A stretch of 64,000 nucleotides of DNA from a virus: positions 17,938 through 81,937 of IMG/VR virus record IMGVR_UViG_3300023444_000001; one strand, written 5' to 3'. This document shows, in pieces, positions 11,395 to 26,117 of this stretch. Within the stretch, counting starts at the first letter, position 1, and the number at the start of each line of letters is the position of its first letter. Position numbers and translations under genes: made by a program. Under the pieces are notes generated by a model. The model did not search any database. It was given only the letters and a program-made list of their open reading frames with translations, and had not been told where the DNA came from.

Positions 11395-11405
11395 GTCACA
11401 CCTCC

Positions 11406-11600
11406 TCAATCCTGCCAGCCCTCGAAGGGCCCGCATGTAATCTGCCTCTGTGCAGTCGTCACCATAGCGCTGTTTGTATGCCTGCCAGACCACCAATGTT
11501 CGTCTGGTTTTTCTCCATGTAATGACTTATTGGCGGGGCAAGGAATCTTTTCCAATTGTGCACATGAGGGAATATGTTTAATTTGTTCAGATTTTTTCAT
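11406..11600 (-). CDS. hypothetical protein, 64 aa
   Basis: Chosen start ATG 11600 (MKKSEQIKHIPSCAQ) follows GGAGGGATGAG. The first 20 codons are AT-rich like the phage and the rest is GC-rich, so the upstream border of the island falls inside this gene. The C-terminal half (GEKPDEHWWSGRHTNSAMV) competes with a more protein-like reading in another frame, so the gene may be a chimera made by insertion or a frameshifted remnant. Three Cys. Function unknown. Confidence 0.4.
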   Translation of the reverse strand: MKKSEQIKHIPSCAQLEKIPCPANKSLHGEKPDEHWWSGRHTNSAMVTTAQRQITCGPFEGWQD

Positions 11601-11639
11601 CTCATCCCTCCTCAATTAAATCAAAACCAAATTTTTTCT

Positions 11640-11894
11640 TTAATCCCATCCCCAACAACCACAATAATATAAATCTGTCTCTTTATCCGGTCGATAAGAG
11701 AAAAATGGTAATCCAATCCTTGAATCTGTAACATTATCACATTGACAGCATTCAGCCTTTCTTCCTTCCAAAGAAGGCATTTCAGCAATTTCTATGGCTT
11801 CCGGAACTATACCAAAACAACTTGCACAAACCGGATTTCCTTTTTCATCAACAGCAGTTGCTGTATGTCCACATTTCATCATAACTATAGACAT
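11640..11894 (-). CDS. small zinc-binding-like protein, 84 aa
   Basis: An 84-residue protein with KCGH and CASCFG early, CCQCDN in the middle and YYCGCWGWD at the end, so one or two zinc sites are likely. GGAGGGAAAA before the ATG. AT-rich again, so outside the GC island. Cysteine-rich small proteins of this kind are common in phage accessory regions; function unknown. Confidence 0.6.
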   Translation of the reverse strand: MSIVMMKCGHTATAVDEKGNPVCASCFGIVPEAIEIAEMPSLEGRKAECCQCDNVTDSRIGLPFFSYRPDKETDLYYCGCWGWD

Positions 11895-11946
11895 TTTTCC
11901 CTCCTTTAGTAAAAATAATACCTTTCCTCACAAAAATCAAATTTTC

Positions 11947-12462
11947 TTATTTCAGATATGAATATGAATACACATCCTTCAAAGTCCGAAATTTATCTCC
12001 TTTTCCCATTCCATATCCAACAAGAAAGCCATCCTCCTCTCTTACTTTGAATCCGACATATTTCACCCTATCTATGCCCTTATCCCTTTCAAACAAAACA
12101 CATCCCTCAATAGACCTCGGATTTTCCTTCTCTAAAGACCTTTTTACTTCTTCAAAACTTTTTCCTGTGTCTAAAATATCATCTATAATCAAAACATTTC
12201 TATCTTTCACTTTCTTCAAATCAAACATGAAGTTTACTTTCAAATTTTCCGAAGGATTTAATTCTTCTCCATAAGAAAAAACTCCAGCAAATTGAATTTC
12301 CGGTGATAAACCAGAATATCGAATTAAATCCCATCCAAAAGGAAATCCTCCTTTCAATACAATAAGAAAGAAAGGATTCTTTCCCCAATAATCAAAATTT
12401 ATTCTCCGAGATATTTCATAAACCTTTCCTTTTATTTCCCTTTCCTTAAATATTTTCTTCAT
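11947..12462 (-). CDS. phosphoribosyltransferase, hypoxanthine type-like
   Basis: A 171-residue PRT-fold enzyme. The PRPP-binding motif NVLIIDDILDTGKSFEEV lies near residues 88-105, and ILVLKGGFPFGWDL-like text near 35 matches the PPi-loop region of hypoxanthine/guanine phosphoribosyltransferases. Length and order of motifs are typical of that group (about 170-180 residues). It would convert a free purine base and PRPP to the nucleotide. In this phage it could feed purine salvage, or handle a modified purine, but the substrate cannot be read from sequence. A terminator lies just upstream (12509-12555). Confidence 0.8.
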   Translation of the reverse strand: MKKIFKEREIKGKVYEISRRINFDYWGKNPFFLIVLKGGFPFGWDLIRYSGLSPEIQFAGVFSYGEELNPSENLKVNFMFDLKKVKDRNVLIIDDILDTGKSFEEVKRSLEKENPRSIEGCVLFERDKGIDRVKYVGFKVREEDGFLVGYGMGKGDKFRTLKDVYSYSYLK

Positions 12463-12508
12463 TTTTTACCTCCTTTAGTAAACTGAACTTTTCTAATCTC
12501 ATTCTTTT

Positions 12509-12555
12509 TTAAGAAAAAATTAGACCGGACTTTTCAAAATCCAGTCTTTTTTTAA
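12509..12555 (-). terminator. rho-independent terminator, possibly bidirectional
   Basis: Arms AGACTGGA and TCCGGTCT (12522-12529 and 12540-12547, with G-U pairing) enclose a 10-base loop; the minus-strand transcript then runs into AATTTTTT, and the plus strand also has a T run. It lies about 80 bases downstream of the solitary CRISPR repeat and would end that transcript. Confidence 0.8.
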
Positions 12556-12635
12556 GAAGAGTATCCATGACCCTCTTTTGTCTATCCATTTAAGGGGGGG
12601 GGGTATTATCTTTCTTTCCTTTCCCTCTATAGGAT

Positions 12636-12667
12636 GTTTCAATCCACGCCCCCGCGCGGGGGGCGAC
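12636..12667 (-). ncRNA. solitary type I-C CRISPR repeat unit, candidate RNA anti-CRISPR
   Basis: A single 32-base sequence that, read on the minus strand, begins GTCGCCCCCCGCGC and ends GGGGGCGTGGATTGAAAC. It has the 7-bp CGCCCCC/GGGGGCG stem, the invariant GTCGC start and the TGGATTGAAAC 3-prime handle of type I-C repeats. No second repeat lies within a spacer distance on either side, and no cas genes are seen. It sits in the gap between two genes with a terminator downstream. Phage solitary repeat units that mimic crRNA and trap Cas proteins are known; this is that arrangement. I see no strong promoter directly upstream, so it may be cut from the operon transcript. Confidence 0.8.
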
Positions 12668-12700
12668 TGTATACACCTCAAGTGTTTTAACTCCTTTGAA

Positions 12701-12955
12701 TTACATCTTCATTTCCGACATCCTCCTTTCATATTCAGAATCAAAAAATTTCGTCTTATTTCCACATTCAGAACAAATTCCTTCAAACTCTGTTTCCTCT
12801 TCATCTATTGTTCTCCAACATTTCATTTCATCAGACAATTTTACTGGAGGTTCTCCACAACAAATAGACCTCCAATCTGGCTCAAACTCTTCTTCTCTTT
12901 CACAAAATTTCTCTGCTTTACAACGACAACAATTCATTGTACACATCTCATCCAT
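12701..12955 (-). CDS. small cysteine-rich protein, 84 aa
   Basis: An 84-residue acidic protein with CCRC near the start, SICCGEPP in the middle and ICSECGNKT near residue 60; at least one zinc ribbon is likely. It is the gene just upstream of the solitary CRISPR repeat and probably shares its transcript. Function unknown; its neighbourhood makes it worth testing as an anti-CRISPR or its regulator, but nothing in the sequence itself shows that. Confidence 0.6.
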   Translation of the reverse strand: MDEMCTMNCCRCKAEKFCEREEEFEPDWRSICCGEPPVKLSDEMKCWRTIDEEETEFEGICSECGNKTKFFDSEYERRMSEMKM

Positions 12956-12961
12956 TTTTTC

Positions 12962-13132
12962 TCACTTATCTTTCAAAAGTGTTACGTGAATAACCTCAAC
13001 CCACTTTCTACACCTTGCACACTTTCCAAATACAAGATCAGTTGGATATTCGAGATCAGAGGTCAAAGTTCCATAAATTGGCCAATGACCACAAATAGTC
13101 TTCCAATCCTTATCAATTCTAATTCTTTTCAT
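12962..13132 (-). CDS. small zinc-binding-like protein, 56 aa
   Basis: Starts at ATG 13132 (MKRIRIDKDWKTICGHW), preceded by GGAGGCACAAA; the longer open frame upstream is the shadow of the neighbouring gene. A CGH and a later CARCRKW suggest a zinc site. It overlaps the preceding gene by 14 bases. Function unknown. Confidence 0.6.
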   Translation of the reverse strand: MKRIRIDKDWKTICGHWPIYGTLTSDLEYPTDLVFGKCARCRKWVEVIHVTLLKDK

Positions 13133-13427
13133 TTTGTGCCTCCAATTTTCGATACCATTCTTCAGGATACCCAGGATACTCCATTCTACGAAGAGTGGAG
13201 CGAATCCCAAGGTCTTTAGCCAACTTATCACGAAGATCAAACCAAGGATTGTAATCCACATTATCACCTTGTTCTTCACTCCAGCACTCTGGGAAAACCA
13301 TCCCTGCTAAAGCGTGTGAATATCTCTCGTTCCTATCTAATCTTGATACTGCATCTGTTATAGCAACCAAGATTTCCTCACGACCATTGAGTTTTACAAG
13401 TGCTGATTTTATTGTCGATATACGCAT
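13119..13427 (-). CDS. hypothetical protein, 102 aa (paralogue of 14225-14524)
   Basis: Start ATG 13427 (MRISTIKSALVKLNGREEIL) follows GGGAGGTTTGTA. It is clearly homologous along its whole length to the protein at 14225-14524: both share GREEIL, RYSHALAGMV, PECWS, GIRSTLRRMEYPGYPEEWY. The two arose by a tandem duplication about 1 kb apart. No known family; predicted helical. The first 50 bases lie within the end of the upstream gene. Confidence 0.65.
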   Translation of the reverse strand: MRISTIKSALVKLNGREEILVAITDAVSRLDRNERYSHALAGMVFPECWSEEQGDNVDYNPWFDLRDKLAKDLGIRSTLRRMEYPGYPEEWYRKLEAQNEKN

Positions 13428-13590
13428 TACAAACCTCCCTTTCATTATACCAATCTTCTTCTCCATCATCCCACCGAATTTTTACTCTTCCTTTATGAGA
13501 ATCCAAAGCAATTACTTCTGCATATCGTACTTTATCCCCTTCTGGAATTTCCAAATTCTGTTTGAGATAAAACATTGTTGATTGTCTCAT
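13378..13590 (-). CDS. hypothetical protein, 70 aa
   Basis: Start ATG 13590 (MRQSTMFYLKQNLEIPEGD) follows GGGAGGTTACA and lies just downstream of a strong promoter. The sequence VRYAEVIALDSHKGRVKIRWDDGEEDWYNE looks like a small beta barrel (SH3 or Tudor-like). Its last 17 codons overlap the next gene by 50 bases, which is unusual here, so a shorter original C-terminus may have been lost. Confidence 0.55.
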   Translation of the reverse strand: MRQSTMFYLKQNLEIPEGDKVRYAEVIALDSHKGRVKIRWDDGEEDWYNEREVCNAYIDNKISTCKTQWS

Positions 13591-13627
13591 TGTAACCTCC
13601 CTTTGTTTGAAAGTTAAAGTTTGATTG

Positions 13628-13664
13628 TATAATATAATATAATATATCTCTTTGAAAAAGTCAA
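13628..13664 (-). promoter_or_regulatory. sigma70-type promoter
   Basis: On the minus strand TTGACT (13659-13664) is separated by 17 bases from TATATT (13636-13641). It belongs to a set of six near-identical promoters in the window, and points at the 70-aa gene starting 13590. Confidence 0.85.
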
Positions 13665-13695
13665 GGGTTTTGTTTGTCAAAAGATTCTTTCCTCC

Positions 13696-13884
13696 TTACT
13701 CAATCTCACAATATTCCTCAATTAGACTGATAACCTCAGAATATGACGAACTTTCAAAAGCACGTTTAACAAACTCTTTTGCTCTCTCCTTCTCCCCAGC
13801 CTTTAGCAAAGCCTTCTTCGTAAGGCCAATCAAATTGAAAACATTCCCATTCTTTCCAACCAATTTCACTACTGGCTTTTCCAT
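13696..13884 (-). CDS. hypothetical helical protein, 62 aa
   Basis: MEKPVVKLVGKNGNVFNLIG followed by two charged helices. AAGGAGGAATAAA precedes the ATG. The GKNGNxFNLIG pattern with a helical tail is a type of small conserved phage protein of unknown role. It overlaps the upstream gene by 16 bases. Confidence 0.6.
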   Translation of the reverse strand: MEKPVVKLVGKNGNVFNLIGLTKKALLKAGEKERAKEFVKRAFESSSYSEVISLIEEYCEIE

Positions 13885-14078
13885 TTTATTCCTCCTTGTT
13901 TTGAACCTGGTTGAACCTGGATTTTACCATCCAAAGTCTTAGTCACCAAAGACAACTCTGAATTTTCATCCATCCCAAAAACTACCAACAAATAAGCAAC
14001 ATTCCTTCCAATTTCATCACCACACCAATGGCACATAACCTTCCCATTCCCCAAAACAACTATTCTCTCCATTACCAT
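13869..14078 (-). CDS. small protein with CxxC, about 69 aa
   Basis: The frame contains MCHWCGDEIGRNVAYLLVVFG, a likely metal-binding pair, and ends QGGIKWKSQ. The start is uncertain: a TTG at 14093, ATG at 14078 or 14072, and ATG 14036 (with GGGAAGGTT upstream) are all possible. I give 14078. Function unknown. Confidence 0.5.
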   Translation of the reverse strand: MVMERIVVLGNGKVMCHWCGDEIGRNVAYLLVVFGMDENSELSLVTKTLDGKIQVQPGSKQGGIKWKSQ

Positions 14079-14150
14079 TGAAATGCAATCCAAGCCAATT
14101 CATCATTTTCTCCTTATTTTTTTAGTCCTAAAATCAACTGTGCTGTGTTC

Positions 14151-14201
14151 AAAAAGAAGAGAGGAAGAAAAAAGAAGCCAAAATTTTCTCTTCCTCTCTT
14201 C
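14151..14201 (-). terminator. rho-independent terminator
   Basis: A perfect 13-bp stem, GAAGAGAGGAAGA with TCTTCCTCTCTTC (14156-14168 and 14189-14201), is followed on the minus strand by TTTTTG. It ends the transcript after the 99-aa paralogue. Confidence 0.85.
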
Positions 14202-14224
14202 TCAAATCAGAATCAATCCCAATC

Positions 14225-14524
14225 TCAATCGGTGGCATCCAACTTTTGGTACCATTCTTCAGGATAACCCGGATATTCCATTCTGCGAAGAGTGGAACGA
14301 ATCCCATATTCTTTTGCCAACTTATGCCGGAGATCAAACCAAGGAGTGTAGTCAACCCAATCTCCCTGTTCATCAGACCAACACTCCGGGAGAACCATCC
14401 CTGCCAAGGCATGAGAATATCTCTCACCTCGATTTAATTTTGTCAGAGCATCTGTTATCGCCGCAAGAATCTCCTCCCGACCACCCAATTCCGCCAACAC
14501 ACCTTTTATTGTCCTAACTCGCAT
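14225..14524 (-). CDS. hypothetical protein, 99 aa (paralogue of 13119-13427)
   Basis: MRVRTIKGVLAELGGREEIL, homologous end to end to the 102-aa protein at 13119-13427. The best conserved blocks are the ERYSHALAGMV segment and the C-terminal GIRSTLRRMEYPGYPEEWY. AGGAGGTTGC precedes the ATG. Function unknown, and no domain recognised. A terminator follows it. Confidence 0.65.
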   Translation of the reverse strand: MRVRTIKGVLAELGGREEILAAITDALTKLNRGERYSHALAGMVLPECWSDEQGDWVDYTPWFDLRHKLAKEYGIRSTLRRMEYPGYPEEWYQKLDATD

Positions 14525-14604
14525 TGCAACCTCCTTCTTGTTTCCTTGTTTTGCACCAAATCATTTTCACAGTTTCTTCATCTCATCCTTACTTTTGCCT
14601 TTGT

Positions 14605-15006
14605 TTAGGATTGAAGAAGTAACTCCTCCTTTTGTTCTTTTGTCATTTCCTTAAGTAAGAGAATTTTTCCATTAAGGATTGCATATCTGTTGAGTTGACC
14701 ATAGGTCATTAACATCTCTACATCCTCAACTCCTTGATCGAGAAGTTGTTGTAACTCTTCTCTTGAATAAAACCTGTTACGAGGTTTCACTTCAACCCCA
14801 CCTTTGAAATATGCTCTATTTTCAACAAAGGTGGAAAATGGAGAAGGTTTCTCTATCTCTCCTTTTTGAATTGAAGTATAACAGTGAGTAGCACCCCACT
14901 GTTGCTTCTTTCTCCAAAATTCGTGTGTCTTGTTTCCGTATCTCATAGCCTTATTACTTCGGCTATTTACCCCAGACCGGATTTGAATTGTAGAGTGGGT
15001 AGTCAT
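14605..15006 (-). CDS. hypothetical protein, 133 aa
   Basis: First gene after the promoter at 15050-15086, with AGGAGGCACAAA before the ATG. A basic, Ser/Gln-rich N-terminal half (FWRKKQQWGATHCYTS) is followed by FYSREELQQLLDQGVEDVEML and an acidic tail. No family recognised. Confidence 0.55.
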   Translation of the reverse strand: MTTHSTIQIRSGVNSRSNKAMRYGNKTHEFWRKKQQWGATHCYTSIQKGEIEKPSPFSTFVENRAYFKGGVEVKPRNRFYSREELQQLLDQGVEDVEMLMTYGQLNRYAILNGKILLLKEMTKEQKEELLLQS

Positions 15007-15049
15007 TTTGTGCCTCCTTAAAGTTAAGGTTAAAAGTGAAGTTTAATTG

Positions 15050-15086
15050 TATAATATAATATAATATATTTGCTTGAAAAAGTCAA
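15050..15086 (-). promoter_or_regulatory. sigma70-type promoter
   Basis: TTGACT (15081-15086), 17 bases, TATATT (15058-15063) on the minus strand, with the same TTGACTTTTTCAA context as the promoter at 13628-13664. It drives the 133-aa gene. Confidence 0.85.
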
Positions 15087-15096
15087 GGGTTTTGTT

Positions 15097-16035
15097 AAAA
15101 AATTTTTACAGTCTAAAATAACAACTCCTTACTTTTCTTATTTCAAAAATCAAATTCACTATTACTACTCTCTATAATGTCTACTTTTCTACATACACTC
15201 TCAATCATTGTCGCCTATATGAGGGTACCCGCATTAACTTGTTCTTATTTCTTAACTTACAAAAGTGGGAAATTTTTCACATACTGCTATTCTGTAACAA
15301 TTCTTACATTAAATTCTTCTATAAACGACATCCTATTTACCTCAATAATCTTTCTAACCTACTGTCAATAAATAACTTACAATATAAAACCTCTCTTCTA
15401 TTTCAAAAAGAGAAGTCTTTTTTCTTAATTCTAAATTTCAATTTTACTCTCTCTTCACAACTTCAAATTTCTTATTTTTATGTTCCATAATTTCAAATTA
15501 ACTCAACTCATTTCTTTATACTGATCTATACTAAAATATCTATAAAATTCATTAACTCAACTGGTAGGCAAAAATTTCCTATCTCCATAAAATTCAATAT
15601 ACCTTCAAATGCTGTAACTTATTGCCTACCAACGAGTTCCATAAGCCTCCCACCTATTTGACAAAAACAAACTTGATTTCTATACAATAACACAACTCTA
15701 TCCTAATTACTGGAATTGGACTTATCTTTATAACTTCTTGGTAGGAAACTACTTAACTCAACTGAAGGCTAAGAAGGTAAGAAATTTCTCTTCTGTTCTT
15801 TTTCTATACAAACAACCTAAAAGAACCACTTTTTCCCTTTTTTCTTTATTCCCGCAAAAATTTAATTCATTATACCTTATTCTATTATCCTTTGAAACCC
15901 TTCTTTTATATTTACCGCGAAATTTCAAGGAATACCAACCTTGGCGCAAAACCTTCCAAAATTTTTAAACTTTTAACAACCTTAATAAGAAAATCCTCTT
16001 ACAACTATCAATCTTTTCCCCGCGAAAATTTCAAA
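15097..16035 (-). other. 939-base non-coding region with short repeats
   Basis: The longest gene-free stretch in the window. It is very AT-rich and I see no convincing gene in any frame. It holds three copies of TTAACTCAACT (15498, 15552, 15753), an inverted pair ggtaggcaa/ttgcctacc (15563-15571, 15622-15630), a further ggtaggaaa near 15740, and two copies of ccgcgaaa(a)tttcaa (15915 and 16020). Such clusters occur at replication origins and control regions; which one applies cannot be told from sequence. Confidence 0.5.
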
Positions 16036-16808: not shown

Positions 16809-18239
16809 TTATTTCCCAAAAATTTCCCGCAAAATTCCTTTTCCTTTGGCTCGTATAAAAACCTCATCCCTATTATCTCCCATATTCTTCAATGTCTGAG
16901 CCATATCCATCAACGTTCTTAATTGATCGGTAACATTTGGATCAAGAACTCCTCCATCAGATTTTTCTATGTGAACAGCATGAAAAGTTCTCTGAGCCTC
17001 TATCTCAATAACTGTCTTTACAAGATTTAACAAATCAGAAGAACCTTCTATTTTGAAAGTAAAATCATATCCACAAAGACTTCCTTCTTTATATCGGGGA
17101 CAATTTTCATCCAAATAACACGTATTACAGGAAATCTTTTCAACTATCCTTTCATCTAAAACAGGGACTTTTGGCTTTTTTTCAATAACTTCACTTTTTA
17201 CTTCAACAATTTCATTGTCTCTTTTCATACTTGCTTTCACCCCCTTATTTCCTAACTTCTTGGCTTCTTTTATATCTTCCGGACTTAACCAATAAGCATT
17301 TTTACATTGATATTTATACCAATCAGTCCACTTTTTCCACATGAAAGCATTGATGATATTACAAGGTCTTGCCAATCCATTCTTAAATCCTTCCCAATCA
17401 AACTTGTCCCCAATAGTTTCTTCTATTTCTTCCTTATACTTTTTTTCTATTTTGCTTTTGAATTTCTTTCTCAATATATCGGACTTTTTTCTCGTATCAG
17501 CAATTATCTCAAAATTTTCCATTCGTCCATGTGAAGAGAAAAATATTGCTCCAAATCTTCCACCAGAAATCCAACTTGTAGAATCTACAGTAAAAAATGG
17601 TCTTCTTACTATATCTTTTTCACTACTTAAACCAAACCCATGAAGCAATATTTTCTTTTTTCTTGCAAATCTAAAATACCGATGTAAAGTCAAATCACTC
17701 CGTACCCAACCTGACCCTGTTCCAATGTAATCATAGGCATCAAACCATCCTAAATCTTCTATTTCTTTATTTGACTCACCTTGCAAAACAGGTATCAGAT
17801 GTATTCCCATGTCTTTCGCCTTATTTAACCACTTTACTCTCTCTGCTTTTCCAAAATCCTCAGAAGTAAAATCTAATTCAGCGAACGCTTGAACAGATTC
17901 TCTCATCTTAAAGGCAAAATCTAAATATTCATTATAATACTGCTCTATATCAAGACTTTTCCCTTTTGCCCCTCCAGATTTTTCTAAATCTATATTCAAC
18001 GTATATCCACCTGAATCAATAAATACAAAATCAAAGTCTCTCAAAAATTCTTCTTTTAACTGTTCTATAGACTTTTTCCTTATCAACTTTCTTAAATAGT
18101 AAAAAGACAATAATACATTTCTAATTCCTATCATTCTCAATATACTTCTAAACTCGTTTGTCTCCGCACCAGCAAAAAGCAAACAAGTATTGTATATCTT
18201 TGGATAACATCGAAATTCCATGCCATTAAATTCTTGCAT
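16809..18239 (-). CDS. dpdA: DpdA-like DNA-guanine transglycosylase with Cys-rich tail
   Basis: A 476-residue TIM-barrel protein of the tRNA-guanine transglycosylase superfamily, closest in plan to phage DpdA, which swaps a guanine in DNA for preQ0 or a derivative. Visible motifs: FIDSGGYTLN near residue 75 (base-binding loop), LIPVLQG near 150, TGSGWVRSD and LLHGFGLSS, and VDSTSWISGGRFG near 225. From about 370 there is a second module with CNTCYLDENCPRYKEG and a further Cys, then conserved helices; this resembles a free-standing phage Cys-rich domain and may bind metal or DNA. With queC, queD, queE and folE upstream the context is decisive. A bacterial TGT is less likely because the tRNA-enzyme zinc site is not seen in place. 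Confidence 0.85.
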   Translation of the reverse strand: MQEFNGMEFRCYPKIYNTCLLFAGAETNEFRSILRMIGIRNVLLSFYYLRKLIRKKSIEQLKEEFLRDFDFVFIDSGGYTLNIDLEKSGGAKGKSLDIEQYYNEYLDFAFKMRESVQAFAELDFTSEDFGKAERVKWLNKAKDMGIHLIPVLQGESNKEIEDLGWFDAYDYIGTGSGWVRSDLTLHRYFRFARKKKILLHGFGLSSEKDIVRRPFFTVDSTSWISGGRFGAIFFSSHGRMENFEIIADTRKKSDILRKKFKSKIEKKYKEEIEETIGDKFDWEGFKNGLARPCNIINAFMWKKWTDWYKYQCKNAYWLSPEDIKEAKKLGNKGVKASMKRDNEIVEVKSEVIEKKPKVPVLDERIVEKISCNTCYLDENCPRYKEGSLCGYDFTFKIEGSSDLLNLVKTVIEIEAQRTFHAVHIEKSDGGVLDPNVTDQLRTLMDMAQTLKNMGDNRDEVFIRAKGKGILREIFGK

Positions 18240-18255
18240 TTTTATCCCTTGAAAT

Positions 18256-18789
18256 TTAATACCTTATTATCAAAAACTTCTCTGGGGTAACCTCATAATG
18301 ATCCAAATATGCTTGTGAAGAATAGCAATTCCTTTTAACCCAAATTTTCTTGGTCAGCATATCTCCAGACAGATTTACAGTCAAATCATACTTTTCCGAT
18401 CCATAAGCAAAAGTCCATAATGATCCAGAATATGCACCATTCACTGCCACATTCATTACTGCTCTATAAACTGCTTGATGATGATTTCCATTATATTCTC
18501 CATATTCTCCATGCGAAACAACTAATTCTGGTAAAATATCTTGTATTTTACTTGAAACAAGACTCATAATTTTTTCTATATCACAAAGAGAAGATTGTTT
18601 CAATTCCCCATACAAAGACTTAAATCCTAAAATTTCAGAGGCTTTATTAAATTCTGATTTTCTAATAGAACAATCTTTCGTATTAAGACCTAAAACATAT
18701 ACTTCAGAAAAAGAAGCAAAAACTTGAATCAATCCTCCAGCAAAAATTGTCTCGTCATCAAGATGGGCCACTATAATCAAAACCTTCAT
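18256..18789 (-). CDS. PIG-L/LmbE family deacetylase
   Basis: A 177-residue zinc-dependent N-deacetylase. The start VLIIVAHLDDETIFAGG carries the AHPDDE-type metal motif (here AHLDDE), and SHGEYGEYNGNHHQAVYRAV near 115 supplies the HxxH metal ligands. The family removes acetyl groups from N-acetyl sugars such as GlcNAc-linked substrates. In this cluster it could act on a sugar added by one of the neighbouring glycosyltransferases. It overlaps the methyltransferase upstream by 32 bases and lies 16 bases before dpdA. Family firm, substrate unknown. Confidence 0.85.
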   Translation of the reverse strand: MKVLIIVAHLDDETIFAGGLIQVFASFSEVYVLGLNTKDCSIRKSEFNKASEILGFKSLYGELKQSSLCDIEKIMSLVSSKIQDILPELVVSHGEYGEYNGNHHQAVYRAVMNVAVNGAYSGSLWTFAYGSEKYDLTVNLSGDMLTKKIWVKRNCYSSQAYLDHYEVTPEKFLIIRY

Positions 18790-19375
18790 TTTCTTTTTCC
18801 AATATTTTGCAAGAAAATATCAATCCACGAGGAAAATATTCATACAAAACATCCTCCCGTATAACATATCCAAAAAGATAAAAACTTTCCTCAAAATGAA
18901 ATCTATCTTCATGGGCTAAAACTATAAATTGAGGTTTCATTAAGACTATCTTCTTTATTCCTTCCTCATATTTATCTTCAAAAAAATACAAGACTTCCGA
19001 CAAAATCACTGTTGTCCAATATCCTATTTCATCCTCTATATTATCTTTCAAAATATCTTTTTTTTCAAATTCAATAAGCCCTTCAACCCAATATTTTTCC
19101 TTTGCTTCTTCAATCCATTTATCAACTTTATCCCATCCTTTGACATACCTTCCCGGAAGCAATGAAGTTAAATTTCCCTGACAACAACCAATCTCCAGCG
19201 TATTACCTTCAAAAATCTCTTTTACTCGCCTTAATAATCTATTCAACCAAATGGCCCGTAAAGAAAAGAGATTGAATCCTTCTGACCCAACCACACTCAT
19301 ATCCCAGGCACTATCTTTAGTAATTTGATCTGAGTAATCAATATTAGTCCAAAGATTATTCTTTATGTCTTTCAT
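18758..19375 (-). CDS. SAM-dependent methyltransferase (NodS-like)
   Basis: A 205-residue class I methyltransferase. Motif I is NTLEIGCCQGNLTSLLPG near residue 58; VKGWDKVDKWIEEAKEKY is the acidic second strand; VILSEVLYFFED is the motif IV region. The pattern resembles NodS-type sugar N-methyltransferases, which methylate a de-N-acetylated amino sugar; the PIG-L deacetylase just downstream makes that role attractive here. It overlaps genes on both sides. The fold is firm, the sugar substrate is inference. Confidence 0.8.
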   Translation of the reverse strand: MKDIKNNLWTNIDYSDQITKDSAWDMSVVGSEGFNLFSLRAIWLNRLLRRVKEIFEGNTLEIGCCQGNLTSLLPGRYVKGWDKVDKWIEEAKEKYWVEGLIEFEKKDILKDNIEDEIGYWTTVILSEVLYFFEDKYEEGIKKIVLMKPQFIVLAHEDRFHFEESFYLFGYVIREDVLYEYFPRGLIFSCKILEKENEGFDYSGPS

Positions 19376-20172
19376 ATCGAATATACAACCTTAAATCTAC
19401 GCCGTTCTATTTCTGAACAAATCAATATTTGTCTTCCATCATCAGAGCATAAAATTCGATCTTCTCCAAATACTCCAAAACCTTTTTTCACAGTAAAACG
19501 TTCTCCTCTTTTACAAAAGCATCCACAAACCCATCCATCCTCTAATATTTCTACTTGTTCTCCAACTCGAAGAAAACATTCTTGTGGTTTAATATAATAT
19601 CCTATTCCACACTGATGATTGCTTTCATCAATTTCAATTCCATTATATTTGGCTTTTATTTCCCTCCACAAAACCGGAACCTCAAATTCACTTTTATTTC
19701 CACAGTCAAAAATATTGTGAAACGCAATTATTCCTTCAGATCTAACTAAAGGAGTATATAATTCATAATCTCTTCTTGCACAAACTATATCATGATTTCC
19801 ATCAATAAAAAGAGCATCAACAAAATCTTCTCCAACTATTTTCTTAATCATACCAGATAAAATAACCGGAGAAGACTCTCTTATTGAATCTAAATTCAAA
19901 TAAATCGGCCAATATTTTGGATCGTTCCCAATCCATTTTGCTTTACATATATCAATATCAATACTAAACACCCAATCACAAACATGACAAAAAGCCCAAG
20001 CAGTATATCCTTGACTTGCTCCTATTTCAACTAAAACCTTTGGCTCTATTCCTTTCAAAATATTCAAAAATACAAATAATTCTCTTGAATTTTGTTCCCC
20101 TCCTAAACTTTCAGAACGTTCTGCTATTTTCCACAATTCTTTCATATTCCATGATTTAACCATTACATCCAC
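19372..20172 (-). CDS. SAM-dependent methyltransferase, CmcI/cephalosporin hydroxylase-like
   Basis: A 266-residue protein. Residues 45-65 contain VLVEIGASQGYTAWAFCHVC (SAM motif I), then SIDIDICKAKW, and DALFIDGNHDIVCARRDYELY with FHNIFDCG, the signature region of methyltransferases related to the CmcI and rhamnosyl O-methyltransferase group. About 50 extra residues at the C-terminus form a small strand-rich add-on. It overlaps the next genes by 4 and 10 bases. Sugar or base methylation is likely; the acceptor is unknown. Confidence 0.75.
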   Translation of the reverse strand: MDVMVKSWNMKELWKIAERSESLGGEQNSRELFVFLNILKGIEPKVLVEIGASQGYTAWAFCHVCDWVFSIDIDICKAKWIGNDPKYWPIYLNLDSIRESSPVILSGMIKKIVGEDFVDALFIDGNHDIVCARRDYELYTPLVRSEGIIAFHNIFDCGNKSEFEVPVLWREIKAKYNGIEIDESNHQCGIGYYIKPQECFLRVGEQVEILEDGWVCGCFCKRGERFTVKKGFGVFGEDRILCSDDGRQILICSEIERRRFKVVYSI

Positions 20173-21161
20173 CTTCCAAGCAACCTTGTATATCCTTCTT
20201 TCATAACAGCAAAAGAATAATTCTCTCTAATAAATTCTCTATTTACATCAATAAATCCATCCCAACTTTTAACTGCTGTTTCAAGGCACTGATATACTGT
20301 TTCATCATCAGCAAACAGTACTTTCTTTCCCTTAATATGAAAATAATCTGGAATATTTGGCAAAACTAAAGCCCTTCCTGAAGCCATAGCCTCTAAAGCC
20401 GGATATGAAAAAGTATCAGTCAACGAATAATTCCAATATACCTTCGATTCCATAAATGCTTGAGCCATCTCATTTCTATTCAAACTAAACCGTGTCTCAA
20501 CGTTAGACAAATTCAATGCTTCAACCTTCTTAGCCTCTTCTTCCCAAGGAAAAACAAGCAAAAACTTTATTTTCTTCAAATCTCTAATTATACTTAATAC
20601 TTCATCTATTCTTCTAATTAGATGCCAATGCCCAGTCCATAAAACATCAAATTTTATGGGTCTCTCCCTGTCTACGCCAAAAGTTTGGAGGTCAATACAC
20701 AATGGAATTACAACTAATTCTTTTGGAATAGCATAAGGAAAGACCCGAATTATCCTTTCAATACATTCCTTTGTTGGAACAACCATTAACGGTAATTCAA
20801 ACATGAATTGTCTCATTTCACTAATTGCTTTCTTATCCCATAAATGGGGAATATAATGAGCATAATAAATCGTTTTATCATACCATAAAGACAAAAACCT
20901 ATATCCCAAATTTCCATAAAAGACTACATCTGGACATATTTTCTCTAATTTCTGCAATACAGACCAATAATTCACCAAAGCATTTTTTTCATATTCCCAT
21001 TTTGAATCCTTATTTTCCAACAAATTTGTCTTAATCTCAGATTTCACAAGAGAAAATTCTATACCTAACTCCTCACAAATTCTCTTTATCTGAAGGATAA
21101 ATGTATGATGACCTCCAGTCTTTTCTGCTTGCATTTTCTGCGTAACATAAACTACTTTCAT
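20163..21161 (-). CDS. family 4 glycosyltransferase
   Basis: A 332-residue GT-B enzyme. N-terminal VVYVTQKMQAEKTGGHHTFI is the acceptor domain; the C-terminal domain shows FDVLWTGHWHLIRRIDE, FPWEEEAKKV and the retaining GT4 signature YPALEAMASGRALVLPN near 265-280. Enzymes of this family glycosylate many acceptors, including queuosine in tRNA, which makes a 7-deazaguanine acceptor conceivable here. Its gene lies between queC and the methyltransferases. The family is firm; the acceptor is inference. Confidence 0.85.
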   Translation of the reverse strand: MKVVYVTQKMQAEKTGGHHTFILQIKRICEELGIEFSLVKSEIKTNLLENKDSKWEYEKNALVNYWSVLQKLEKICPDVVFYGNLGYRFLSLWYDKTIYYAHYIPHLWDKKAISEMRQFMFELPLMVVPTKECIERIIRVFPYAIPKELVVIPLCIDLQTFGVDRERPIKFDVLWTGHWHLIRRIDEVLSIIRDLKKIKFLLVFPWEEEAKKVEALNLSNVETRFSLNRNEMAQAFMESKVYWNYSLTDTFSYPALEAMASGRALVLPNIPDYFHIKGKKVLFADDETVYQCLETAVKSWDGFIDVNREFIRENYSFAVMKEGYTRLLGRWM

Positions 21162-21173
21162 ACTTCAGTCTCC

Positions 21174-21875
21174 TCAAGCAATAATTTTTTTCACACTTAA
21201 AATATCATTGCATCTCTCTTTATCATAATATCCTATTTTAGCCCTTTTAACATATTCATCAAATAAAAAACTTTCTGCAGGCCACATTGCAAAATTATTT
21301 CTCAACTCATCTTCTGAAAAAAATCCATAAAGACCAAAAAATCTCCTTAAACAGGCTGGACAATTTCCACAATGTCCAAAATTTCCATTATAACATGACA
21401 CAGTGCTCAACAATACATCTTTAGGATACTTACTTTTTAAGTACCAACTTATTATCCTTCTTTTAGTCCAAAAGAGAAAAGGAGAAAAAATTTCTATTTT
21501 TTTCTCCTTTCCGAGTTTTGTCAAACATTCAGATAAAATCTTATTTGCTTGTTTTCCTTTATCCTCAACTTTATCACCACAAATACCAATAAGCCCAATT
21601 TTATTTCCGTAATTGGCCGCTATTGTACAAAGAATTATATTTCTCCACGGAATATAAAAATCCTTTCTTTCCCAATTTCTACCATAATTTTTAGCCGAGT
21701 CATCAATCAATAAATCCATCCCAACTTTCTCTGCTATCATTTTAACAGCAAACTTTTCCTTTTCTATATATTTGCTTCCAATATCAACAAATAAAACTGA
21801 GGGTTTGTCAAGATACCACCATGCACAATATGAATCTACTCCCCCACTAAAAAGCAAAATCAAATCTTGTGGCAT
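21174..21875 (-). CDS. queC: 7-cyano-7-deazaguanine (preQ0) synthase
   Basis: A 233-residue ATP-dependent enzyme that converts CDG to preQ0. The pyrophosphatase loop LLFSGGVDSYCAWW is at the start, and the zinc cluster CYNGNFGHCGNCPACLRR near 175-192 matches QueC. Length is normal. No glutamine amidotransferase domain is fused, so it is not the Gat-QueC form. It sits in the cluster with folE, queD, queE and dpdA, all on one strand. Confidence 0.93.
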   Translation of the reverse strand: MPQDLILLFSGGVDSYCAWWYLDKPSVLFVDIGSKYIEKEKFAVKMIAEKVGMDLLIDDSAKNYGRNWERKDFYIPWRNIILCTIAANYGNKIGLIGICGDKVEDKGKQANKILSECLTKLGKEKKIEIFSPFLFWTKRRIISWYLKSKYPKDVLLSTVSCYNGNFGHCGNCPACLRRFFGLYGFFSEDELRNNFAMWPAESFLFDEYVKRAKIGYYDKERCNDILSVKKIIA

Positions 21876-21949
21876 ACAATATTATCCTTATCTTTGATTC
21901 TTCAAAACCATCTTTGTATTCATAAAAGTAAAATTTCTCTTAATTTATC

Positions 21950-22867
21950 CTATCCTCTATAATCATGAGTTAATACCTTATTCTTTGGTTCTGACCATTC
22001 TAATTGAACCTTGTGATTGTAATAACATCCACTACAATTTTTTACCGATTCTATCCATTGTTGTTTGTATTTTTTCAAATCCCAGGAAAAAATATCAAAA
22101 GAAAACTGACCAAATACATCGTTACACGCAAGAATTTTTCCATCGCAATCTATTATCAAATAATCCGGCTTGGAACAATGCCAAGATAAATTCCAATATT
22201 TGGGCAAACCCTCAAAATAATCGCGAATATTGTGGATTTTAAGCCCCTCATCAATTAACTTAAGTCCTATCTTTCTTATCTTTTTCGCTTGCTCAAAATT
22301 GATAGCAAGATCATTTTTGAACCTAAATTCTCCATCTCCACTGTGAACTATTCCTGCTATAATCCAAATTCCCTTTGAATCAAAAAATCTTACTATATCT
22401 TCAAATTCTAAATAATTTTCCTTCGTCAATATAACATTCGCTGTTCTATCCCCTATATGAGTATTTTTAACCAATGCTCTTTTCCCCATTACAGCCTTAT
22501 ACAAATCTGCCTTTTCTTTTCTTAAACTTAAAATGGGTTTACCATCATTTCTCTCTTTTAATGTATCCACAGAACAAGTTAAACTCTTCAAATTATCAGG
22601 AACAATTCTTGTTCCATTTGTAATAACAGTATATGGAATATCAAGATTATTAACTTCATCTACAATTTCTCTAAAATCCTTTCTTAAAAGAGGCTCTCCG
22701 CCAAACAAAACCAAGATTTCCGGATCAATTTTCTTGATGATTCTCAAAACATCAAAAATTTTATCTTTTGATAATTCATTCTTTATTCCCCTTCTTGGAA
22801 CTCTACAATATCTACACCGGATATTGCATCTTCGAGTCAAATATAGACAAACTTCCCTTATCATCAT
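21950..22867 (-). CDS. radical SAM enzyme with SPASM-like tail
   Basis: A 305-residue radical SAM protein. The cluster motif CNIRCRYC lies near residues 14-21, LFGGEPLL near 54-61 is the SAM-binding glycine motif, and a C-terminal set of Cys (CSKPDYLIIDCDGKILAC, then NCSGCYYNH) suggests an auxiliary iron-sulfur cluster of the SPASM or twitch kind. It is distinct from QueE, which is also present. It lies just downstream of a glycosyltransferase and upstream of queC, so it may act on the modified base or its sugar. The substrate is unknown. Confidence 0.8.
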   Translation of the reverse strand: MMIREVCLYLTRRCNIRCRYCRVPRRGIKNELSKDKIFDVLRIIKKIDPEILVLFGGEPLLRKDFREIVDEVNNLDIPYTVITNGTRIVPDNLKSLTCSVDTLKERNDGKPILSLRKEKADLYKAVMGKRALVKNTHIGDRTANVILTKENYLEFEDIVRFFDSKGIWIIAGIVHSGDGEFRFKNDLAINFEQAKKIRKIGLKLIDEGLKIHNIRDYFEGLPKYWNLSWHCSKPDYLIIDCDGKILACNDVFGQFSFDIFSWDLKKYKQQWIESVKNCSGCYYNHKVQLEWSEPKNKVLTHDYRG

Positions 22868-23012
22868 TCCAAACCAAAATTAAGAGTTGAACACCTGCCT
22901 TACTATCCTTATAATTCTTAAAATAAGCCGCACAGTAAGGTTTTCTTTTCAAAAAGGTATATTGAGTAGAAGAATAATAAAAACCTTCCTCAGACGTTTG
23001 AAACAAGGTCAT
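22812..23012 (-). CDS. questionable small ORF over the 100-base element, 66 aa
   Basis: MTLFQTSEEGFYYSSTQYTF, preceded by GGGAG at 9 bases and overlapping the upstream stop as ATGA, so it could be translated. It shares RKP and AYFKN with the frame over the 16706-16805 element, but it runs 56 bases into the radical SAM gene and the other two copies of the element carry stops. I give it low weight. Confidence 0.25.
   Translation of the reverse strand: MTLFQTSEEGFYYSSTQYTFLKRKPYCAAYFKNYKDSKAGVQLLILVWNDDKGSLSIFDSKMQYPV
22913..23012 (-). repeat. 100-base intergenic element, copy 2 of 4
   Basis: Overlaps the stop codon of the glycosyltransferase (ATGA) and ends GGCTTATTTTAAGAATT at 22913; 46 bases then lead to the radical SAM start. 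The 3-prime half is nearly the same as copy 1 (AAGAAAACCT, then GGCTTATTTTAAGAATT), and both could form a short AAG/CTT, CC/GG hairpin. Confidence 0.55.
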
Positions 23013-23959
23013 TTATATATTCTCCCTTGAGATACAACCTCTCTTGCCATTCTTGTTTCTATCATAGCCTGTGGTATAAATTTCCAAGGTCTCTCCAAAA
23101 ACCCAGTTACGAGAAAATCATCCTCAACCCAAATTTCCAAATTTTTCTCTCTTGCCATATTCCAAATATCCCAAACTCTTTTATTCTCATTAAATCCCAT
23201 CCCATAGTAAAATCCTATTGGAAAAACAAAATAAGCATCAAACCCAGGCACATAATCATTCTTTTCCCATAGAATCTGAACTCTCTTATTTCTATAATTT
23301 AATTTCGATTGGATCAACCTATGAACTCTACAATGATCCCATTGAACATCTAACCGAGGATAAGCCTTTCCCAATTCAGCCACTATTTTATCCACAAACT
23401 TAAACTTAACATCCGAAAAATAATGAAGATTTAACCACATACAGTAATCTTCAGCACCTTGAAACTTTGGATTAAATGGAAATCTCATAAATATACTTTT
23501 ATCGGCTATAGCCGCTCCAATTGAAATTCCATTGAACCAATTAAGCCAAGACCTCCATACATCTTCTCTCGGATCAGGTATTTTTCTTCCCCTATATAAA
23601 CAGGAAAAATAACAAACAGTATTTGGCTCACAAGCCTCAAACATATCCTTTACCACTTTGGGAGAAGTAAATACATCATCAGAATCTCGCAATAGAATAA
23701 ATCTTCCTCTCGCTGATTTTATTCCAAAATTTCTTGCCTCAGACAAACCATGATTTTTTTCCCATCCAACCAAGTTCCATAATACACCTTTAAGATTCTC
23801 TTCAACTATATCTTTTATTTCAGGCCCTCCATCGCGAACAATTATAACTTCAAAATTTACTCCCCTTTGAAAACTTAATGACCTTAATACCTTTTTGAAC
23901 ATATCCTTACGCCAATCAGAATCTATTAAAACAGGAATAATTACTGATACATCTATCAT
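23009..23959 (-). CDS. family 2 glycosyltransferase
   Basis: A 316-residue GT-A enzyme: IDVSVIIPVLIDSDW at the start, FEVIIVRDGGPEIKD near 38, and the LSEARNFGIKSARG with LLRDSDDVF metal motif near 75-95. The C-terminal 120 residues are not typical of known subfamilies and are specific to this protein. It lies between folE and the radical SAM gene, in the 7-deazaguanine cluster. It could add a sugar to the modified base or to another acceptor. Confidence 0.88.
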   Translation of the reverse strand: MIDVSVIIPVLIDSDWRKDMFKKVLRSLSFQRGVNFEVIIVRDGGPEIKDIVEENLKGVLWNLVGWEKNHGLSEARNFGIKSARGRFILLRDSDDVFTSPKVVKDMFEACEPNTVCYFSCLYRGRKIPDPREDVWRSWLNWFNGISIGAAIADKSIFMRFPFNPKFQGAEDYCMWLNLHYFSDVKFKFVDKIVAELGKAYPRLDVQWDHCRVHRLIQSKLNYRNKRVQILWEKNDYVPGFDAYFVFPIGFYYGMGFNENKRVWDIWNMAREKNLEIWVEDDFLVTGFLERPWKFIPQAMIETRMAREVVSQGRIYK

Positions 23960-23962
23960 CTT

Positions 23963-24538
23963 TCACTCTCCATTCTTATGCAGAAACAAATTCATAGCCT
24001 CTTCCTTCGGAAAATTTTCCCCTCTAATTGCACTCGTAGTAACTACAACTCCAGGCTCTTTAATTCCTCTCATTTGCATACATAAATGCTGACCTTGAAG
24101 AACAACCATCACTCCAAAAGCGTCTAAAACATCAAAAAGAAAATTTGCAATTTCTTGGGTCATTTCCTCCTGTACTTGAGGCTTTTTGGCAAAATACTTG
24201 ATTATTCTTACTACTTTAGATAATCCAACATACTTGGCATCAGGAAGGTATGCTACGTAAGCCTTTCCAAAAAATGGCAAAAAATGGTGGCTACACACAG
24301 AATAAAACGAAATATCCGAAAATACTATGAGTTGATTATATTGCTCCCTATTGGGAAAAACAGTAATTTTATCTAATTCTGACTTATCCCACATGGCCCC
24401 ACAAATATCAAAAAGCATCATATGAGCCCATCTTTTTGGGGTATCTTTCAAATTAGGCAAAGTTAAATCAAATCCCAAAATATCAAGAATATCTGAAAAC
24501 TTCTCTTCTAATTGTCTTTCAATCTTTAATGTGTTCAT
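23963..24538 (-). CDS. folE: GTP cyclohydrolase I
   Basis: A 191-residue FolE that opens GTP to dihydroneopterin triphosphate, the first step to preQ0. Zinc and active-site motifs are present: SVCSHHFLPFFGKAYVAYLP near residue 80 and QGQHLCMQMRG near 150. RWAHMML near 38 and TSAIRG near 170 also match. The ends and length fit FolE1. It is 3 bases upstream of a glycosyltransferase and overlaps the preceding 84-aa gene by 20 bases. Confidence 0.93.
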   Translation of the reverse strand: MNTLKIERQLEEKFSDILDILGFDLTLPNLKDTPKRWAHMMLFDICGAMWDKSELDKITVFPNREQYNQLIVFSDISFYSVCSHHFLPFFGKAYVAYLPDAKYVGLSKVVRIIKYFAKKPQVQEEMTQEIANFLFDVLDAFGVMVVLQGQHLCMQMRGIKEPGVVVTTSAIRGENFPKEEAMNLFLHKNGE

Positions 24539-24773
24539 CTATTTTCTTCAAAATCCCCAAAACTGCTGAACTATCTCTAAAAACCATTCCTGTAAAAGTC
24601 TTAGGACAATCGTCTGGTGATCCAAATTTACAAAAAGGTTCAAAATTATTCACTTCAACTATTGACCTTTGACACAAACAATTTCTAAAAGAATTAACTC
24701 TTAAAATTTGAACTGGAATTTTTTCAAAATTCAAAAGTAAAATATCAACCTCTGAACTTTTATTCTCATTCAT
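24519..24773 (-). CDS. hypothetical Cys-containing protein, 84 aa
   Basis: A small protein between queE and folE that overlaps both. It has NCLCQRSIVEV and PFCKFGSPDDCPKTF, so a metal site is possible, with a helical C-terminal end. I do not recognise it. Its place inside the pathway genes makes a role in the modified-base pathway plausible. Confidence 0.6.
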   Translation of the reverse strand: MNENKSSEVDILLLNFEKIPVQILRVNSFRNCLCQRSIVEVNNFEPFCKFGSPDDCPKTFTGMVFRDSSAVLGILKKIDEHIKD

Positions 24774-25483
24774 TTTAACCCCACAAACTTATGAACTTGG
24801 GGGATTATTCTAACCGGATAATTTCTAAAATCCCAATTACTTAAAATATCTTTACAAAATGATTTTCCTTTGCTCCACTCAGGTTGAAATACAACAGAAA
24901 TAAAACTTGGAATATCCTCAAGAATATTCTTAACTTCTTCCATATCTCTCTTTTTTGTCAAAACAAACTTAACTTGCCCACTAAATAATCCTTCCTTCAT
25001 ATATAATTTCCAATTATCATTCAATTTTCTTTCTATTTTACTGTTTCCAGAATTTTTTAATTTCGGAGAAAGTGACCAAAAATCTACCCAAGGAAGCAAT
25101 GAACTATCAAAAAAAGTCCCATTTGTTTCTATTACTACCCAGTTAAACAACCCCTTATCTTTTCCCTCATAAATAAATTTTTCCAGAAATCTACTTTGAA
25201 GTAAAGGCTCTCCACCTGTAATAACTAAACTTTTTGTCTTCCATCTTCCATCAAAATATCCAAACAATTCCTCTTTACTTACTTCATCAAACAAAGAATA
25301 CTCTGTATCACACCAACTACACTTAAGGTTACATCCCGCCAAACGAATAAAAATACTTGCTTCTCCAACTATTATTCCTTCTCCTTGTATAGAAAAAAAT
25401 GGCTCTTTTGCTAATTCTAACCTATTTTTAGCCCGAGTCAATTCCCTCTTCCCTCCATTTCTTTTAACTCCAATATTCAACAT
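24770..25483 (-). CDS. queE: 7-carboxy-7-deazaguanine synthase, radical SAM
   Basis: A 237-residue enzyme that contracts CPH4 to CDG. It shows FFSIQGEGIIVGEASIF (the conserved QueE substrate region), the radical SAM motif CNLKCSWCDT near 55-64, and LVITGGEPLLQ near 88. PEWSKG and IIPQVHKFVG at the end match QueE proteins. It overlaps queD by 20 bases. Confidence 0.93.
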   Translation of the reverse strand: MLNIGVKRNGGKRELTRAKNRLELAKEPFFSIQGEGIIVGEASIFIRLAGCNLKCSWCDTEYSLFDEVSKEELFGYFDGRWKTKSLVITGGEPLLQSRFLEKFIYEGKDKGLFNWVVIETNGTFFDSSLLPWVDFWSLSPKLKNSGNSKIERKLNDNWKLYMKEGLFSGQVKFVLTKKRDMEEVKNILEDIPSFISVVFQPEWSKGKSFCKDILSNWDFRNYPVRIIPQVHKFVGLK

Positions 25484-25835
25484 AATGTTTAGAGGATTCC
25501 CAAAGACGTACTTTATCTAACGTGACTTCTACTTGAGAAAAATCTAACTTCTGTTTGAATCTCTTATAAATCCATTCAGCAAAATTTTCTGCGGTAGGAT
25601 TACAAGAGACAACTTCATTTAGAAACTTGTGATCTAACTCTACGTCAACTATCTCCTTCAACATATCAGAAAAATCAGAAAAATTCCAAACAACCCCATT
25701 AGACTTAACAGTTTCAGATATTATAAATACTTCTACTTTCCATGTATGCCCATGCAAATTAGTACATTTTCCAAATTCTTTTCCTTTTAACTGATGGGCA
25801 GAATCAAATTCTTGACTTATTCGTAACCTAATCAT
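25464..25835 (-). CDS. queD: 6-carboxytetrahydropterin synthase
   Basis: A 123-residue QueD of the 6-pyruvoyl-tetrahydropterin synthase fold, making CPH4 from H2NTP. Motifs: FDSAHQL (first His), CTNLHGHTWKVEVFI (catalytic Cys and two zinc His), LDHKFLNE, and PTAENFAEWIY. Length is typical for bacterial QueD. It is the first gene of the preQ0 set in transcription order, directly after spoVS. Confidence 0.93.
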   Translation of the reverse strand: MIRLRISQEFDSAHQLKGKEFGKCTNLHGHTWKVEVFIISETVKSNGVVWNFSDFSDMLKEIVDVELDHKFLNEVVSCNPTAENFAEWIYKRFKQKLDFSQVEVTLDKVRLWESSKHYVEYWS

Positions 25836-25844: not shown

Positions 25845-26117
25845 TCACTTGATAATAATATCTAAAATTATAGCCGATTTTTTGACGCTATCAATTTCTA
25901 CATCCTTAAATCCTGGCCGAATAAAAACATCCCTACCTTGAGAAGCCAAAATTGAACGTGCAATAATTATACCTTTAACCGCTTGATTTACACTTCCAGC
26001 CCCAACAGACAATAAACTTACATCATGTCTTTCCTCGTAAGTCTTTACAATAGCCCCAGCCAAACTGTGTGCATTTGATTTTGCCGCAACTCGCATTTCC
26101 ACTTTATCCTGATTCAT
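25845..26117 (-). CDS. SpoVS-like Alba-fold protein
   Basis: A 90-residue protein matching the SpoVS family along its whole length: MRVAAKSNAHSLAGAIVKTY, then SVGAGSVNQAVKGIIIARSIL, PGFKDVEID and a final strand. SpoVS is an Alba-superfamily protein, so nucleic acid binding is likely; in Bacillus it affects sporulation and septation. In a phage it may reshape host DNA or development. It sits directly upstream of queD. Family call firm, phage role unknown. Confidence 0.88.
   Translation of the reverse strand: MNQDKVEMRVAAKSNAHSLAGAIVKTYEERHDVSLLSVGAGSVNQAVKGIIIARSILASQGRDVFIRPGFKDVEIDSVKKSAIILDIIIK

Follow-up and report, generated by a model that had tools for sequence, protein, structure and literature searches.

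A phage operon that probably makes a glycosylated 7-deazaguanine and installs it in DNA

Introduction

7-Deazaguanines inserted by DpdA protect phage DNA (Hutinet et al., 2019, PMC6884629), and sugar-coated phage DNA is known on pyrimidines, as glucosyl-hydroxymethylcytosine and arabinosyl-deoxycytidine in the T-even phages and their relatives (PMC13390438). Here, an operon of ~9 kb (16809-25835, minus strand) is described in which genes for 7-deazaguanine synthesis (Que genes) and dpdA lie together with genes for glycosyltransferases, methyltransferases, a deacetylase and a radical S-adenosylmethionine (SAM) enzyme. It is found in a stretch of 64,000 bases (the window) out of an 81,937-base virus record, IMGVR_UViG_3300023444_000001, from a phage of the contractile-tailed type, as judged by sheath, baseplate and portal matches. 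To our knowledge, the known sugar-coated phage DNA is all pyrimidine-based, and the known 7-deazaguanines in DNA bear small groups only; later 7-deazaguanine derivatives in phage DNA were reportedly described by Cui et al. in 2023. A literature search, outside whose coverage some key papers lay, turned up no account of DNA with a glycosylated 7-deazaguanine, nor any of glycosyltransferases inside dpdA operons. On balance, we favour the view that the operon makes a glycosylated 7-deazaguanine and installs it in the phage's own DNA, the best reading being that this hypermodification carries a de-N-acetylated, possibly methylated amino sugar. The DpdA base system is already known, and the locus points to its sugar-bearing form as an undescribed DNA disguise.

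Gene arrangement and recurrence in other viruses

Family assignments were made with Pfam, PHROGs and NCBIfam (Table 1). The minus strand carries nearly all genes of the window, the operon included, and every gene named in the initial annotation of this DNA was found there with Pfam and PHROGs. Read from 26117 to 16809, the order is SpoVS, QueD, QueE, an open reading frame (ORF) of 84 amino acids (aa), FolE, a family 2 glycosyltransferase (GT2), an ORF of 66 aa, the radical SAM enzyme, QueC, a family 4 glycosyltransferase (GT4), two methyltransferases, a PIG-L deacetylase and DpdA, the last gene. Intergenic spacing runs from -56 to +74 bp, and since the majority of junctions are overlaps or gaps of <20 bp, the block 16809-25835 looks like one transcription unit. 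Its base composition is like that of its surroundings (G+C of the window, ~34%). Five of the six sugar- and methyl-type enzymes recognised on the contig fall in this 13-ORF block, a clustering with a chance probability of ~1e-4 to 3e-4 if the contig, annotated in part, is assumed to hold 80-100 genes.

The core of the initial annotation, a DpdA-dependent 7-deazaguanine to which sugar is then added, is strongly and independently supported by unrelated viruses, in which one particular radical SAM enzyme recurs with Que genes and DpdA, as do glycosyltransferases and deacetylases. Comparison loci (given here by L numbers) were found by scans with alignments of the DpdA C-terminal domain and of the radical SAM enzyme. 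Two share the opening QueC-radical SAM-GT2 and end in DpdA, with a carbohydrate esterase family 4 (CE4) polysaccharide deacetylase, GT2, GT4 and a GT4-like gene in between in L026, and GT2 and GT25 in L027 (some of the GT4 matches in these two loci fall under the Pfam cut-offs). The order is FolE-GT2-ORF-GT2-QueC-radical SAM-DpdA in L051 and FolE-HAD-radical SAM-GT4-QueC-DpdA in L057. The L056 locus, whose 10-kb contig also encodes a B-family DNA polymerase, reads radical SAM-PIG-L-GT4-QueC-TGT-like-FolE. Its radical SAM enzyme is 39% identical to that of the window, its PIG-L protein retains the residues of the metal site although the match, at 22.6 bits, falls short of the Pfam cut-off, and the label TGT-like (tRNA-guanine transglycosylase-like) rests on a DSGGFQ motif in a protein that matches neither Pfam nor PHROGs. 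Related GT4 genes occur in loci with DpdA (L005, L029, L057 and L110). Judged by these sequences, unrelated viruses have assembled the combination of Que genes, DpdA and sugar genes several times. Scans of viral contigs for close relatives with single proteins (DpdA, QueC, GT4) found nothing, and a QueE-based scan of genome contigs gave two loci only, neither with a similar sugar cassette.

In a DpdA tree (26 proteins, a modest sample with long branches), the sugar-bearing operons are not one clade: a minimum of four changes is needed for the glycosyltransferase-bearing state, and the approximately unbiased test rejects their grouping in one clade (p-AU 7e-5). The window, L026, L027 and L051, a group named from gene content before the tree, form a supported clade (99/96) in which all members have the radical SAM enzyme and glycosyltransferases. 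No glycosyltransferase family is among the 25 Pfam families listed for 122 ORFs around plain dpdA operons.

An alternative that we judge unlikely is that plain preQ0 (7-cyano-7-deazaguanine), or a deazaguanine tailored by the radical SAM enzyme, enters the DNA, while the glycosyltransferases, PIG-L and methyltransferases are only co-transcribed and have their substrate in a surface glycan or a protein of the virion. Glycosyltransferases with surface or structural targets are common in phages. The window has another GT2 (phrog_13126) next to structural genes, at 7367-8365, which likely glycosylates the virion or surface, and Stenotrophomonas phage DLP5 (L007:12001-17434) has PIG-L, WcaG, WecE, methyltransferase and BshA-like GT4 genes in a cluster without dpdA. 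However, the GT2 of the structural region stands apart from the operon, and glycosyltransferases accompany Que genes and DpdA in at least three to four independent lineages, which fill the same slot with different cassettes. It is hard to see why genes serving unrelated surface glycans should have come to lie between Que genes and DpdA repeatedly, independently and with a different choice of glycosyltransferases. The flanks of the sugar-bearing loci also speak against it, as no glycosyltransferase family is among the 25 listed for their 58 ORFs.

Table 1. Genes of the operon and its 5' neighbour, in window coordinates
Feature	Position	Strand	Evidence
SpoVS-like protein, 5' end of operon	25845..26117	minus	phrog_35646, 80.6 bits
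QueD-like 6-pyruvoyl/6-carboxy-tetrahydropterin synthase	25464..25835	minus	phrog_2389, 89 bits
QueE, 7-carboxy-7-deazaguanine synthase (radical SAM)	24770..25483	minus	phrog_2076, 122.7 bits; Radical_SAM, 37 bits
Small Cys-rich ORF, 84 aa, overlaps QueE and FolE	24519..24773	minus	operon position
FolE, GTP cyclohydrolase I	23963..24538	minus	PF01227, 179.9 bits
Family 2 glycosyltransferase (GT2)	23009..23959	minus	PF00535, 52.9 bits
Small ORF, 66 aa, overlaps GT2 and radical SAM genes	22812..23012	minus	candidate gene only
SPASM/twitch-type radical SAM enzyme, CxxxCxxC with C231, C248, C278, C281	21950..22867	minus	PF04055, 63.0 bits
Short phage-type QueC (SGGVDS, IPWRN, four Cys)	21174..21875	minus	PF06508, 64.2 bits; phrog_1550, 95.6 bits; alignment
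Family 4 (GT-B type) glycosyltransferase (GT4)	20163..21161	minus	PF13692 (Glyco_trans_1_4), 27.5 bits; phrog_2170, 42.5 bits
Class I SAM methyltransferase, Methyltransf_24	19372..20172	minus	PF13578, 33.5 bits; weak PDB O-methyltransferase matches, E 0.01-0.05
Class I SAM methyltransferase, Methyltransf_11	18758..19375	minus	PF08241, 23.9 bits, above cut-off
PIG-L/LmbE-type N-deacetylase; H9, D11, D12, H104	18256..18789	minus	PF02585, 44.6 bits
DpdA-type DNA guanine transglycosylase, fused C-terminal CxxC domain; D75, H200, D219	16809..18239	minus	phrog_887, 144 bits; alignments; tree

Synthesis of the base

By their families, FolE, QueD, QueE and QueC would together form the preQ0 route. The QueC protein has the SGGxDS motif (SGGVDS), a VPxRN-like motif (IPWRN) and the zinc Cys motif C161-C169-C172-C175, in which the first spacing is 7, not 8. 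In the alignment, YxQxHxxE and YPDC, which are among the motifs defining canonical QueC of cluster 1 (PMC13329287), are missing from the window protein, L008 and L009, and YPDC is kept in L010; the window protein is therefore filed as a phage short-QueC rather than as canonical QueC. The missing motifs, together with the repurposing of QueC-like enzymes for other reactions (PMC13329287), would fit a QueC that forms an amide between 7-carboxy-7-deazaguanine (CDG) and an amine, for instance an amino sugar released by PIG-L, instead of making preQ0, with DpdA inserting the conjugate. This we consider very improbable, because the same short QueC is present in plain phage operons of the form DpdA-QueC-QueD-QueE-FolE without sugar genes (L009, L016-L022, L025), so that a divergent QueC does not go hand in hand with a sugar cassette. 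The occurrence of the identical QueC type in plain operons weakens the divergent QueC as a sign of new ligation; QueC probably does its ordinary job in the window.

Profile searches for QueF and PF06508 spanned the entire 81.9-kb contig. The initial annotation had seen neither QueF nor an amidotransferase, and these searches agree: QueF is absent from the contig, its sole match (20.8 bits, below the cut-off) lying inside FolE, and PF06508 matches at one place only, the stand-alone QueC of 233 aa. A glutamine amidotransferase-QueC fusion or equivalent, as for the archaeosine-type base dG+, was not found in the contig; one such fusion is present in L062. The proposal that preQ0 itself is the starting base is less secure, since a nitrile has no obvious point of attachment for a sugar and preQ0 is probably altered by the radical SAM enzyme.

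Insertion by DpdA

The match of the window DpdA to phrog_887 (phage DpdA) covers residues 20-471, and the protein is homologous to DpdA of phages BRock, GiJojo and Bipper. Among its TGT-type residues, D75 (in DSG) and H200 are invariant among eight DpdA, and the Asp of the VDS motif (D219) is shared with L026 and L027. The C-terminal CxxC domain, here fused to DpdA, is encoded on its own in Bacteroides phage BS162P1 and its relatives. Insertion of the base into DNA by DpdA is well supported by this family membership.

Glycosylated queuosine is known in tRNA, as mannosyl- and galactosyl-queuosine, and TGT-type enzymes are common to tRNA and DNA systems, so that the glycosylated deazaguanine might be destined for tRNA instead of DNA. 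We hold this to be very improbable: the window protein falls among the phage DpdA of phrog_887 rather than with tRNA TGT, and neither Pfam nor NCBIfam gives a match to it at E 0.001; QueF, required for preQ1 (7-aminomethyl-7-deazaguanine) and queuosine, is missing; and no tRNA genes were found in the 64-kb window.

A phosphoribosyltransferase-like gene lies at 11947-12462 of the window, and a 34%-identical homologue is placed directly 3' of FolE in L004 (8608-9084). Its product may salvage the guanine released by DpdA.

The radical SAM enzyme

The operon holds this radical SAM enzyme besides QueE, from which it differs. Its seven cysteines (CxxxCxxC, C231, C248, C278 and C281) are invariant in 15 homologues. 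The AlphaFold2 model (predicted local distance difference test, pLDDT, 86; predicted template modelling score, pTM, 0.87) matches SuiB, CteB, SkfB, BlsE and MoaA in the PDB with a Foldseek probability of 1.0. Sequence and modelled fold thus both place the enzyme in the SPASM/twitch class, and the auxiliary cysteines noted in the initial annotation are borne out by the conservation of the C-terminal Cys. The gene lies ~5 kb or less from FolE, QueC or QueE in ten loci (the window, L026, L027, L051, L056, L057, L060, L062, L063 and L065). In three of these (L062, L063 and L065), it occurs with QueC and DpdA but without glycosyltransferases, so that its substrate is most likely the base itself, which it would probably tailor to provide the handle for the sugar. 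The fifth match to it in a viral structure library is a protein of 571 aa named 7-cyano-7-deazaguanine synthase, possibly a radical SAM-QueC fusion.

Several relatives have distinct surroundings. The L062 operon (9004-15673) contains two radical SAM paralogues, the QueC-glutamine amidotransferase fusion, a methyltransferase, a HAD-like gene, a short QueC and DpdA, and by gene content is another elaborate deazaguanine pathway. A small HAD/PNKP-phosphatase-like gene recurs in operons with radical SAM, QueC and DpdA genes (L026, L027, L057, L062, L063, L065, L071) and is missing in the window. In L058, L061, L064, L069 and L070, a conserved phage block pairs the radical SAM enzyme with JAB-like, ThiF-like and SbcCD-like genes; L059, L064, L066 and L069 have QueD ~5-6 kb upstream.

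Sugar and methyl enzymes

LmbE-type enzymes characterised so far act on substrates with an N-acyl-glucosamine core (PMC4101496), and from its family the PIG-L protein is predicted to deacetylate a sugar of the N-acetylglucosamine (GlcNAc) type. Its metal site (HXDD plus His: H9, D11, D12, H104) is invariant in the three phage proteins from the window, L056 and DLP5; the spacer is ~91 residues, compared with 97-148 reported for LmbE-type enzymes (PMC4101496). Equivalent cassettes use two unrelated deacetylase families, PIG-L in the window and CE4 in L026, which argues for a common need, the freeing of an N-acetylhexosamine (HexNAc) amine. Of the two methyltransferases, one had been called NodS-like, implying N-methylation; this is not secured, as the PF05401 match, made by the Methyltransf_11 protein, reaches 21.2 bits against a cut-off of 24. 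The GT4 and Methyltransf_11 genes had no tblastn match among 50,697 phage records.

In the PDB, GT4 is matched best by an MshA-type glycosyltransferase (7qsg, E 1.4e-4). GT4 and PIG-L are the pairing of mycothiol, bacillithiol and aminoglycoside pathways, and the operon might accordingly yield a small molecule, either a deazapurine-glycoside metabolite or a low-molecular-weight thiol of the mycothiol/bacillithiol type. Besides the MshA-type match, a weak match of PIG-L to the bacillithiol deacetylase BshB2 (TIGR04000) is in its favour. However, that match scores 26 bits, far under the cut-off of 195, and DpdA, the last gene of the same operon, would be needless; we therefore rate a small-molecule product very improbable.

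Proposed pathway

The genes, the operon, the conserved catalytic residues and the recurrence in unrelated viruses are established here. From gene association only, we infer that the sugars end up on the deazaguanine, and the order of reactions and the product of the radical SAM enzyme are proposed on the same grounds. FolE, QueD, QueE and QueC would convert GTP to CDG and then preQ0 (or halt at the amide), and DpdA would exchange guanine in DNA for the base so made. The SPASM/twitch radical SAM enzyme would remodel the 7-substituent into a handle, on which GT4 and GT2 may build a mono- or disaccharide from sugar nucleotides supplied by the host. PIG-L would then deacetylate a HexNAc and so expose its amine, after which methyl groups would be added to the sugar or to this amine by one of the methyltransferases or by both. 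The modification likely serves to shield the DNA from host nucleases.

Several points weigh against a glycosylated base in the DNA. GT4 is barely above its Pfam cut-off (27.5 vs 27 bits) and its structure model is poor (pLDDT 53), while nucleotide-sugar enzymes were not seen within the operon, so that host sugars would be needed. The exact base is uncertain, since two canonical substrate motifs are missing in QueC. The tallies around control operons and flanks list the top 25 Pfam families, which single weak glycosyltransferases could escape. Finally, the same radical SAM family occurs in another conserved phage block (L058, L061, L064, L067, L069, L070) without recognisable DpdA; QueC is found elsewhere on two of the largest contigs of this second group, and a DpdA profile run against other phages with this radical SAM enzyme gave no match, in a search that had no positive control.

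A wider proposal, for which we put the chances at about even, is that a widespread, undescribed viral class uses a 7-deazaguanine tailored by the radical SAM enzyme to anchor interchangeable glycan cassettes, including methylated and deacetylated amino sugars. Sets of glycosyltransferases would be swapped on a fixed chassis of Que genes, radical SAM enzyme and DpdA, thereby varying the DNA coat.

Other features of the window

Beyond the genes named in the initial annotation, the operon contains the two small ORFs, and SpoVS abuts its 5' end; a SpoVS gene occurs together with DpdA in many related loci. The 84-aa ORF gave no match in a PHROGs search, and the 66-aa ORF may not be a real gene. A single copy of a CRISPR-like repeat, GTTTCAATCCACGCCCCCGCGCGGGGGGCGAC, is located at 12636-12667 in a probably non-coding stretch, where an Rfam CRISPR-DR9 match is sub-threshold; it is a candidate solitary repeat unit or RNA anti-CRISPR. 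Two paralogous ORFs of ~100 aa each (13119-13469 and 14225-14524) share 79% DNA identity over 249 bp, and at 44256-47597 a CobT/VWA-like protein adjoins a CobS-like AAA+ ATPase.

Comparison with known systems

If the proposed modification is real, modular, varied and possibly charged amino sugars on guanine would be an added chemical class of DNA, and the sugar genes in many dpdA operons would be accounted for. It would also imply new enzymes, such as a radical SAM enzyme with a deazaguanine as substrate and glycosyltransferases for modified DNA or nucleosides, and would create a target that host defences would need to recognise.

The operon resembles the DpdA-dependent phage 7-deazaguanine systems (PMC6884629) in that FolE, QueD, QueE and QueC make the base and DpdA inserts it, with the same families in a compact operon; the window adds the conserved twitch-type radical SAM enzyme, glycosyltransferases, PIG-L and methyltransferases. 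With the glycosylated pyrimidines of the T-even type (PMC13390438) it shares phage glycosyltransferases that decorate a modified DNA base, sometimes with disaccharides. However, the base there is a cytosine derivative, not 7-deazaguanine, a thymidylate-synthase-type enzyme gives the handle, and the cassette of deacetylase and radical SAM enzyme is lacking. GT4 and LmbE/PIG-L pairs in mycothiol, bacillithiol and glycosylphosphatidylinositol (GPI) anchor synthesis (PMC4101496) likewise combine GlcNAc transfer with subsequent N-deacetylation at an HXDD and His site, but their acceptors are inositol, malate or lipid rather than a nucleobase, and the window PIG-L falls short of the curated BshB2 cut-off. 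Mannosyl- and galactosyl-queuosine, too, place a sugar on a 7-deazaguanine in nucleic acid, but in tRNA and by way of preQ1 and a cyclopentenediol, whereas QueF is absent from the contig of the window.

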